Shown here piece by piece: positions 6,810-10,704 of a stretch of DNA of 53,707 nt. The notes beneath the pieces are model-generated. The model was given only the letters and a program-made list of their open reading frames with translations, was not told where the DNA came from and did no database searches. A program made the translations under genes and the position numbers. The stretch is from a bacterium (GTDB lineage: Bacteria; Actinomycetota; Acidimicrobiia; Spongiisociales; Spongiisociaceae): assembly GCA_028820935.1 (NCBI GenBank), contig JAPPHZ010000019.1, positions 18,586 to 72,292 of the forward strand, written 5' to 3'. Numbering within the stretch: position 1 is the stretch's first letter; the number at the start of each line of letters is the position of its first letter.

Positions 6810-7279
6810 AGCCTCCTCGTAAGAACGCGAAAAACTGCGGGCGAACAGGCTCCGCACGCCGGGCCCTCCCCCACCGCCGCCACCTTGGTGTCGAGCGCGT
6901 TCCGTCCTCCCCCAGGGTGGGGGCTGCCTCGACGATTTGTTCTCTCTCACGGTCCGGCCGACGTCGGGTCCGGATCGCAGGTGCTTCAACCCTGATTCCT
7001 GATGTGGGCGAGACGGCAACCGATGCGGCCAGGGTCGGTGTGCCCTTCCGTGTCGCTTCGACAAACCGTCCATCCGGCATGGAGAATCGCGGTTAACGGT
7101 TGACCACTACCATAAAATGAAGGTGTGACACGAGCGGGTGAAGAAGGGCCGATTCCTCTTTTTCGATGGGGAGTCACGTAGCGAGAGGATGCAAGAGGCC
7201 GCCTGGAAGTGTCGCCGCCTAGACGAGGTCTCATGAGCACGAACCAACCCGATCACGCAGATCGCTAGCCTTTCACCCC
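6810..7279. other. Intergenic region with hairpin and promoter-like elements
   Basis: 470 bp with no convincing ORF; the 213-residue frame on the minus strand (6439-7080) is Arg-rich and reads through the upstream gene, so it is a shadow. Seen: a perfect hairpin CCCCCA-GGG-TGGGGG at 6910-6924, a TAAAAT -10-like box at 7113-7118, and a TAGCCT box at 7266-7271 just before the first candidate start of the oxidase gene. Confidence 0.5.
7266..7271 (+). promoter_or_regulatory. -10 box (TAGCCT) placed for a leaderless start at 7280
   Basis: TANNNT-type hexamer whose last T is 9 nt before the ATG at 7280, the spacing of leaderless actinobacterial promoters and of other such sites in this window. That ATG is out of frame with the downstream oxidase because of the 20-bp duplication. 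Confidence 0.35.
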
Positions 7280-7319
7280 ATGGGCATATTCAGGACAATA
7301 TGGGCATATTCAGGACAAT
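7280..7319 (+). repeat. Exact 20-bp tandem duplication containing the start codon
   Basis: Unit ATGGGCATATTCAGGACAAT occurs twice without a gap (7280-7299, 7300-7319). As 20 is not a multiple of 3, the first ATG opens a 16-codon frame ending at TAG 7328-7330, while the second ATG is in frame with the oxidase. The duplicated CAGGAC gives the second ATG a Shine-Dalgarno-like sequence. Confidence 0.95.
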
Positions 7320-8520
7320 CAGGTCCGTAGCGCGGTTCCGGACCTTCGAAAGAGACCCCGACCTGCGGCGCATGCAGTCGTCGGCAAATATCGACGACCT
7401 TCGCCTCATCGCTCGCCGCCGCCTGCCCCGAGGGGTGTTCGACTACGTGGACGGCGCTGCCGAGGACGAGATCACGTACCGTCGCAACAGCTCCGACTAT
7501 CACAATTGGGAGTTCGTTCCCTCCGTGCTCCGGGACGTATCCCACATCGATACCTCCACCACCCTGCTCGGCCGGCCCCTCCCGATGCCGGTGGTCCTAG
7601 CCCCTACCGGCTTCACCAGGATCGTCGATCCGGGGGGCGAGCTGCCGGTGGCTCGGGCCGCGGCGCGCCGTGGCATCCCCTATTCCCTGTCCACGCTGGG
7701 GACCCGTTCCATCGAGGAAGTGGCCGACGCGGGCGCCGGGGGTCGCAACTGGTTCCAGGTGTACGTCTGGAAGGACCGCGAGCTGGTTCGCAACATGATC
7801 GAGCGGGCGGCCGATTGCGGCTACGAAGCGCTGTGCATCACCGTCGACCTGGCGGTTCCGGGACGCCGGGAACGGGACGTGCGCAACGGGATGACCCTGC
7901 CCCCCAAGCTGGGGCTGGACATGCTCTTCGACGGATTGCGGAGGCCGTCGTGGACATGGCGTTTCCTCAACGCCGAACCGATCACCTTCTCCAACGTGGT
8001 GGGCCTTACCGACCATGACGGCAGCTCGGCCGTCGCCCTTGCCAGCCTGGTCCACGACCAGTTCGATGCCAGCCTCTCGTGGTCGGACATCGAGTGGTTC
8101 CGTTCGGTCTGGGACGGCCCGATCATCATCAAGGGGATCCAATCCGTGGCGGACGCTCGGCGGGCGGTCGAGCACGGCGTGGATGCCATCGCCGTCTCCA
8201 ACCACGGCGGCCGACAGCTCGAAGGCGCCCCCACGTCCATCGAGCTCATCGAGCCGATTGCCCAGGAAGTAGGCAACGACGCGGAGATCATCTGCGACGG
8301 CGGCGTACGGCGGGGGTCCGACATCCTGAAGGCACTCGCTCTGGGCGCCCGGGCGGTGATGGTGGGCCGCGCCTACCTGTACGGGCTGGGCGCCGGCGGG
8401 GAGAAGGGAGTCGACTGGGTTCTCGACTTCTTGGCCGAGACCATGCGCTCTACCATGGCGCTGGCCGGAGTGCGGTCGGTTGGCGAGGTGGGCCGGGACC
8501 TCGTGCGGCGCCGACCCTAG
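7300..8520 (+). CDS. FMN-dependent alpha-hydroxyacid oxidase/dehydrogenase (glycolate oxidase / LldD family)
   Basis: 406 residues of the FMN 2-hydroxyacid dehydrogenase family. Seen: RRLPRGVFDYVDGAAEDE near residue 46, the FMN-binding VLAPTGFTR, QVYVWKDRE, the TVDLAVPGRRERD segment, IIIKGIQSV with the catalytic Lys, and the active-site SNHGGRQLEGAPTS with base His and substrate Arg. It oxidises glycolate, L-lactate or a similar 2-hydroxyacid to the 2-oxoacid. Malate synthase G follows 27 bp later, which favours glycolate-to-glyoxylate chemistry over lactate; that is inference. The start lies in the second copy of a tandem repeat. Confidence 0.9.
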   Translation: MGIFRTIRSVARFRTFERDPDLRRMQSSANIDDLRLIARRRLPRGVFDYVDGAAEDEITYRRNSSDYHNWEFVPSVLRDVSHIDTSTTLLGRPLPMPVVLAPTGFTRIVDPGGELPVARAAARRGIPYSLSTLGTRSIEEVADAGAGGRNWFQVYVWKDRELVRNMIERAADCGYEALCITVDLAVPGRRERDVRNGMTLPPKLGLDMLFDGLRRPSWTWRFLNAEPITFSNVVGLTDHDGSSAVALASLVHDQFDASLSWSDIEWFRSVWDGPIIIKGIQSVADARRAVEHGVDAIAVSNHGGRQLEGAPTSIELIEPIAQEVGNDAEIICDGGVRRGSDILKALALGARAVMVGRAYLYGLGAGGEKGVDWVLDFLAETMRSTMALAGVRSVGEVGRDLVRRRP

Positions 8521-8547: not shown

Positions 8548-10704
8548 ATGAACATCGATGGTCTGGTAGTCGCCGACGAGCTGTACCAGTTCATCACCGA
8601 GGAGGCGCTCCCGGGCAGCGGCGTGGACCCCGGTGCCTTCTGGAAGGGATTCTCCGACCTGATCCACGACTTCGGTCCTCGGAACCGGGACCTGCTCTGC
8701 CAGCGCGCCGAGCTCCAGGCTGCTATCGACGGTTGGCATCGGGCCAACCGGGACGGGGCCTTCGATCGGGCGGCCTACCGGGCCTTCCTGGAGGAGATCG
8801 GCTATATCGAGCCGAGGGGCCCGGTGTTCTCCATCACCACCTCCGGCGTGGACCCCGAGGTGGCCGGGGTGGCCGGCCCCCAGCTGGTGGTCCCGATCAC
8901 GAACGCCCGGTTCGCCCTCAACGCCCTGAACGCCCGATGGGGATCCCTCTACGACGCCCTCTACGGAACCGATGCTCTGGGCGACCCGCCCCCGGCGGGT
9001 GGGTACGACCCGGCCCGCGGTCGGCGGGTGGTTACCTGGTCCCGGAGCTTCCTGGACGATGTGGTCCCGCTGTCCGGCGGCTCGCACGCCGACGCCGCCC
9101 GGTATTCGGTGGCGGATGGCGGGTTGCGGGTGCTGCTGTCACCGGGCGTCGCCACCGGCCTGGCCCAACCTGACCAGCTGGCCGGTTACCAGGGATCCCC
9201 CGACGCCCCCACCGCGGTGCTGCTCCGGAACAACGGCCTTCACATCGCCATCGAGATCGACCCCGAGCGTCCCGTAGCCGCCGACGATCCGGCCGGCGTG
9301 TCCGACATCGTGCTGGAGGCGGCGGTCACCACCATCCTCGACCTCGAGGACTCCATCGCCGCCATCGACGCGGCGGACAAGGCGCTCGCCTACCGCAACC
9401 TGCTGGGCCTGACCAGGGGTGATCTGACCGCCGAGGTGACCAAGAACGGCCGGGCCTTCACCCGCCGGCTGGCACGGGATCGGACCTACACCGCGCCCGA
9501 CGGGTCGGGCTTCACGCTTCCCGGTCTCTCCCTGTTCCTGGCCCGCAACGTGGGCCACCTGATGACCACACCTGCCGTCCTCGATCGAGACGGGAACGAG
9601 GCCCACGAGGGTCTGGTGGACGCCATGGTCACCACTCTGGTGGCGTGTCATGACCTCAGAGGACGAGCCGGCAGGCGCAACTCCCGGACCGGTTCCTACT
9701 ACGTCGTCAAACCCAAGATGCACGGATCCGCGGAGGCGCGCTTCACGTCCGACGTTTTCGACCATGTGGAGGACGTGCTGGGCCTGCCTCGCGACACGGT
9801 CAAGATCGGTCTGATGGACGAGGAGCGCCGCACCACGCTCAACCTGGCCGAGTGCATCCGGGCCGCCCGGTCGAGAATCGTCTTCATCAACACCGGCTTT
9901 CTCGATCGCACGGGCGACGAGATCCACACTTCCATGGAAGCCGGGCCGATGGTGCCCAAAACCCGCATGAAGGCCCAGGGCTGGATCCAGGCCTACGAGG
10001 ACTGGAACGTGGATGTGGGTATCGCCTGCGGTCTGCGGGGCAGGGCACAGATCGGCAAGGGGATGTGGGCTGCGCCCGACCTCATGGCGGCCATGCTCGA
10101 GGAGAAGGTGGGCCACCCGGAGGCCGGCGCCGACTGCGCGTGGGTGCCCTCCCCGACCGCCGCCACCCTCCACGCCACCCACTACCACCGGGTTGACGTG
10201 ACCGCCCGCCAGGACGAGATAGCCGACCGCCCGCCGCGAGACCTGGCAGAGCTGCTCGAGATACCGCTGGCCCCGAGTGCCGACTGGACATCGGACGAGA
10301 TCGCCGCCGAGCTCCGCAACAACGCGCAGGGGATCCTGGGCTACGTGGTTCGATGGGTCGATCAGGGCATAGGCTGCTCCAAGGTTCCCGATATCAACGA
10401 CATCGGCCTCATGGAGGACCGGGCCACCTGCCGCATCTCGTCCCAGCACATCGCCAACTGGCTTCACCACGGGGTGGTGGACCGCCGCCAGGTCATGGAG
10501 ACGATGAAGACGATGGCGGTGGTGGTCGATCGCCAGAACGCCGGCGATCCCGGCTACAAGCCCATGGCGCCGGCCTTCGACGGCCCTGCGTTCCGGGCTG
10601 CATGCGATCTGGTGTTCCTCGGGACGCAGCAGCCCTCCGGCTATACCGAACCGATCCTGCACGCCCGGCGCGCCGAACTGAAGCGCCGCCGAACCGCTAG
10701 CTGA
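8548..10704 (+). CDS. glcB: Malate synthase G
   Basis: 718 residues, the full length of isoform G. It condenses glyoxylate with acetyl-CoA to malate. Seen: N-terminal [13 protein letters not shown], the inserted domain after residue 100, catalytic-core segments [50 protein letters not shown] and the C-terminal [19 protein letters not shown] that carries the Asp/Glu catalytic base region. ATG has GAGGAG eight bases upstream. It is almost certainly transcribed with the 2-hydroxyacid oxidase, forming a two-step glycolate-to-malate module without GlcDEF. Confidence 0.97.

Follow-up and report, generated by a model that had tools for sequence, protein, structure and literature searches.

The start region of a gene for an FMN-dependent alpha-hydroxy-acid dehydrogenase in the analyzed window (the whole stretch of 53,707 nucleotides of contig JAPPHZ010000019.1) carries ATGGGCATATTCAGGACAAT twice head to tail, at 7280–7299 and 7300–7319 on the forward strand, and the two copies are 100% identical. 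We regard it as probable that a chance duplication of these 20 bp made a leaderless gene into a 5′-AUG upstream open reading frame (uORF) followed by a weakly leadered gene, with lower enzyme synthesis. The architecture, a 5′-AUG overlapping uORF in front of a weakly leadered gene, is of a known type that was reached by an unusually clear route.

The array comprises exactly 2.00 units (40 bp) and is not extended by the bases on either side, so that no microhomology flanks the duplication. If up to three mismatches were allowed, the unit still had no further occurrence in the genome. Copy 1 opens with the ancestral ATG at 7280, which aligns to the start codon of single-copy relatives, and copy 2 opens with the present ATG at 7300 and is in frame with the enzyme. 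As the unit length is no multiple of three, ATG 7280 is out of frame with the enzyme and opens a frame of 16 codons (translated as MGIFRTIWAYSGQSGP and a stop; 7280–7330, forward strand), the last 31 nt of which are shared with the beginning of the enzyme gene. Its stop codon TAG (7328–7330) lies inside the enzyme gene, 28 nt beyond ATG 7300. Both the exact tandem duplication and the out-of-frame mini-ORF ending at this TAG had been claimed in a preliminary description of the region, and both are confirmed to the base.

The enzyme gene (7300–8520, forward strand) encodes 406 amino acids with a match to PF01070 (E = 1.9e-140), and its product scores under the NCBIfam cut-offs for LldD, lactate oxidase and MftD. 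Malate synthase G (718 amino acids, 8548–10704, forward strand; TIGR01345 above cut-off) begins 27 bp downstream and possesses a strong Shine-Dalgarno (SD) sequence of its own (−8.7 kcal/mol). Both genes are adjacent in 10 out of 10 members of the genus. Because of this close neighbor, glycolate is a plausible substrate of the dehydrogenase.

The predicted −10 element of the ancestral leaderless promoter, TAGCCT at 7266–7271 (forward strand), is conserved in the congeners. Its presence before the first ATG had been noted correctly, the distance being 8 nt and not the 9 nt claimed. TANNNT is found 7–9 nt ahead of ATG or GTG in nine of nine congeners, in eight of them as TAGCCT; across the genus the hexamer reads TAGCCT in 9 of 10 members and TAAACT in the tenth. 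The columns CGC-TANNNT-TT reach a mean conservation of 0.92 compared to 0.60 for the 27 nt upstream, where one must keep in mind that the genus alignment was anchored on the hexamer and its T, A and T are therefore fixed. Many class-level homologues outside the genus also show TANNNT at 6–8 nt before the start. Given the −10 element at 7–9 nt in all nine congeners, the ancestral enzyme gene was almost certainly leaderless, as far as can be judged from these alignments.

To place this in the context of the genome we counted starts and repeats in a 797-kb sample of stretches of this genome. TANNNT at a gap of 6–9 nt precedes 65 out of 1147 in-frame ATG/GTG candidates compared to 3 out of 498 out-of-frame ones, and the leaderless signature occurs in 65 out of 491 genes (about 13%). 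The genome-wide peak lies at gaps 6–9, with 8 nt, the gap observed here, as the commonest spacing among leaderless-type genes. Together with the −10 element in nine congeners, this signature bears out the previously suggested leaderless-type start as the ancestral state. The ancestral state resembles the TA-led leaderless genes of Actinobacteria reported by Zheng et al (2011, PMC3160421), in which TANNNT precedes the start codon by about 10 bp and an SD is absent. In contrast to these, the true start has been shifted 20 nt downstream by the duplication, so that in its present form the gene cannot simply be called leaderless.

Two further observations were made around the −10 element. A frame of 11 codons (ATGAGCACGAAC...TAG, window 7233–7268) ends with the first three bases of TAGCCT, and the relatives L004 and L006 share this frame. 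In class-level homologues from a group of freshwater Actinobacteria (L045, L046, L049 and L055) TAGCCT is located approximately 23 nt before the ATG with an AAAGG site in between, so that the promoter-to-start layout seen here also exists in a natural, leadered form.

With regard to a mechanism, we propose that RNA polymerase used TAGCCT in the ancestor and that transcription would have begun at the ATG or within about 2 nt of it. The 20 bp beginning exactly at this ATG would then have doubled in tandem, without the aid of flanking microhomology and probably recently. The 5′-terminal ATG 7280 would now open the 16-codon frame as a dead end reaching 28 nt into the gene, and the complete enzyme would be made from ATG 7300, behind a leader of about 20–22 nt with only a weak AGGA. 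In mycobacteria leaderless initiation requires no more than a 5′ ATG or GTG, and genes with a leader depend on an SD (PMC4633059); by analogy, ribosomes may be expected to start at ATG 7280. Most likely the 5′-AUG would capture or block many ribosomes, leaving less enzyme to be made. Because of the dead-end frame and the weak AGGA at ATG 7300, enzyme synthesis was, following this analogy, probably lowered by the duplication; malate synthase G would be less affected owing to its own strong SD. The sequence itself establishes the duplication, its derived state, the reading frames, the conserved −10 element and the leaderless signature across the genome, and from these we infer the transcription start, the translation of the uORF, and both the direction and the size of the expression effect.

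The AGGA in question (7292–7295, forward strand) is a weak SD-like site located 4 nt before ATG 7300, with a duplex energy of −4.0 kcal/mol, where the standard anti-SD was assumed and the 3′ end of the genome's 16S rRNA lies off the contig. It is contained in CAGGAC, codons 5–6 of the gene, which was copied along with the repeat; by its sequence context the site appears as inherited, not selected, in its role before ATG 7300. The earlier proposal of CAGGAC as ribosome binding site therefore stands in so far as an SD-like AGGA is there, but the site is weak and its spacing is 4 nt. Its energy is at background level, approximately the median of in-frame start candidates, and its score is matched by 42% of nearby out-of-frame start triplets. 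One point counts against our preferred explanation: a start at the in-frame ATG at 7372 (M25; SD only −2.7 kcal/mol) could, according to the translated sequence, supply a protein with the entire FMN domain (residue 38 onward, downstream of M25). We also considered and rejected a hairpin CATATT-CAGGAC-AATATG at the repeat junction, with the SD in the loop and the ATG in the stem, as it reaches only −1.2 kcal/mol. No stable RNA structure was found, and the predicted folds of the longer stretches were not more stable than those of shuffled sequences.

The upstream start could also act in the opposite direction, the 5′-AUG loading ribosomes as a standby site or the uORF melting structure, and thereby raise or couple enzyme synthesis. 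In Escherichia coli the deletion of 5′-uAUGs shifts downstream expression up or down, and ptrB with its 26-nt leader requires the 5′-uAUG so that 30S subunits can bind at its downstream start; a 5′-AUG can thus raise downstream expression there (PMC4965119), which counts against our preferred explanation. However, there is no stable structure to melt at the present site and the arrangement is not conserved. The coupling of uORF and enzyme suggested in the preliminary description is also unlikely. The uORF stop lies 28 nt past the enzyme ATG, the overlap exceeds 1–8 nt and the pair is not of the coupled ATGA type, and in native gene pairs of E. coli and Haloferax, for which forward distances were varied, reinitiation is strongly local (PMC10666635). 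As a ribosome would need to move backward over 28 nt, termination-reinitiation is unlikely by analogy to these pairs. We consider such a standby or coupled regulation as a whole rather unlikely.

The closest precedents for the architecture are the E. coli 5′-uAUG mRNAs and the mycobacterial overlapping leaderless small ORFs. The former, e.g. ptrB (Beck, Fleming and Janssen 2016, PMC4965119), share with our case the predicted 5′-terminal AUG, the short frame and a true start about 20–26 nt downstream behind an SD-like site. They differ in that the arrangement here originated from tandem duplication of a leaderless start, has a weak SD, and is known from sequence alone. Like the latter (Shell et al 2015, PMC4633059), the present small ORF is actinobacterial, predicted to be leaderless and runs into an annotated gene in another frame. 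Unlike them, it is not of the coupled ATGA/GTGA type and not conserved between species, and its translation is predicted. No precedent for a tandem duplication of a start codon was found in the open-access literature searched.

The start region is single-copy in all nine other genomes of the genus compared (encoded protein 81–96% identical) and also in the more distant homologues examined from the family and order; the duplication was absent from the nine congeners and the 47 class-level homologues screened. With one copy in all congeners and in the outgroup homologues, the comparison identifies the duplication as derived and confined to this genome. The preliminary description had regarded single-copy strains as a mark of an artefact. 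Since the compared relatives are other species, all with one copy, their state points to a derived duplication instead. Both copies carry the A of ACA where the congeners have ACG or ACC, and the duplication therefore postdates this base change. While only few sites are available, the contrast between 0 out of 20 differing positions in the two copies and 18% difference to the closest relative at fourfold sites suggests a duplication younger than the split from this relative, and probably one of recent date.

It could nevertheless be that most of the population has a single copy and that a rare or erroneous allele entered the consensus, be it by assembly or from a minority variant. The source genome is a draft (3.30 Mb, 51 contigs) and apparently metagenome-assembled, as are its named relatives from the Acidimicrobiia, and every relative compared is single-copy. 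On the other hand, the 40-bp array is far below short-read length and would be resolved directly by an assembler, and both copies share the base that all congeners lack. An artefact is thus improbable in our view.

The duplication is ordinary as a mutation, because exact tandem repeats are common in this genome. Letter-shuffled sequence yields about 1.2 exact tandem repeats with a period of at least 10 per 407 kb, and the probability that an exact 20-bp tandem repeat arises by coincidence is negligible. In the 797-kb sample 15 real ones with a period of at least 12 were counted (heptamer arrays excluded), about half of them with a period of at least 13, which scales to some 30–40 per genome. 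With roughly 2–3% of a genome located no more than 20 bp from a start codon, approximately one start-spanning repeat per genome is expected by chance as a rough estimate. The array at 7280–7319 is the only start-codon duplication among the exact repeats of the sample. A second candidate, a 35-bp exact repeat in L145, was rejected since it belongs to a degenerate intergenic repeat and contains no start. Leaderless overlapping uORFs as a general class were also discarded, with 5 candidates at gaps 6–9 compared to 7–8 per control gap class and hence no enrichment. No signs of selection were found in the conservation of the arrangement, in peptide bias or in stable RNA structure. Most likely the mutation arose by chance and is neutral, tolerated or mildly tuning; regulatory and phase-variable readings are speculation.

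Among the latter, slippage between one and two copies could turn the enzyme up or down. Two exact copies at the start codon are in place, and as the period is not a multiple of three, the gain or loss of a copy would alter the architecture. But there are merely two copies of a long unit, the congeners (other species) all have one copy without copy-number variation among them, and an enzyme of central metabolism is not a typical phase-variable gene. Phase-variable slippage as put forward in the preliminary description finds no support beyond the two copies, with one copy in nine of nine congeners, and we judge it very improbable. A new −10 element, CATATT at 7285–7290, located 9 nt before the second ATG and making the gene leaderless again from ATG 7300, was rejected as hardly credible: it matches TATAAT at four of six positions, with A at position 2, T at position 6 and a spacing in the leaderless range, but without T at position 1 it scores −4.4 bits compared to +7.9 for TAGCCT on the genome's own −10 matrix (derived from TANNNT sites and hence biased toward them), and such non-T1 hexamers are not enriched at gaps 6–9.

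How genes pass between leaderless and SD-led initiation is an open question. The duplication represents one directional event, with the single-copy ancestral form still present in nine congeners; on its own it is one mutation in one uncultured genome. That duplication over a leaderless start provides a one-step route to leadered, uORF-controlled expression, with one or two copies as a heritable population switch of the enzyme level, is an idea to which we assign only a slight chance.

Other repeats were observed along the way. Tandem arrays of the 7-bp unit (TTGCTAG)n occur outside the window, e.g. at L137:1–55, L143:6309–6351, L197:2558–2616 and L202:3873–3934, and are reminiscent of the heptamer TAACTGA arrays in Beggiatoaceae (PMC4679880). 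The 21-mer TTGCTAGTTGCTAGTTGCTAG has 112 matches in this genome, 73 in G006 and none in G002, G005 and G009, and its reversed control has 0 matches. Repeat units of 45 bp, at 4–55 of the window and at L140:18300–18485, form a region that continues from contig C19 across the beginning of the window; the region holds four exact copies surrounded by degenerate ones, and codons for His, Asp and Glu are abundant in it. The degenerate intergenic repeat at L145:6245–6378 consists of GAACCTGAGGAACACCGCACCAAAAATGACGCCCT and variants with one exact 35-bp doubling, and is located upstream of a gene resembling a Rieske-type oxygenase.
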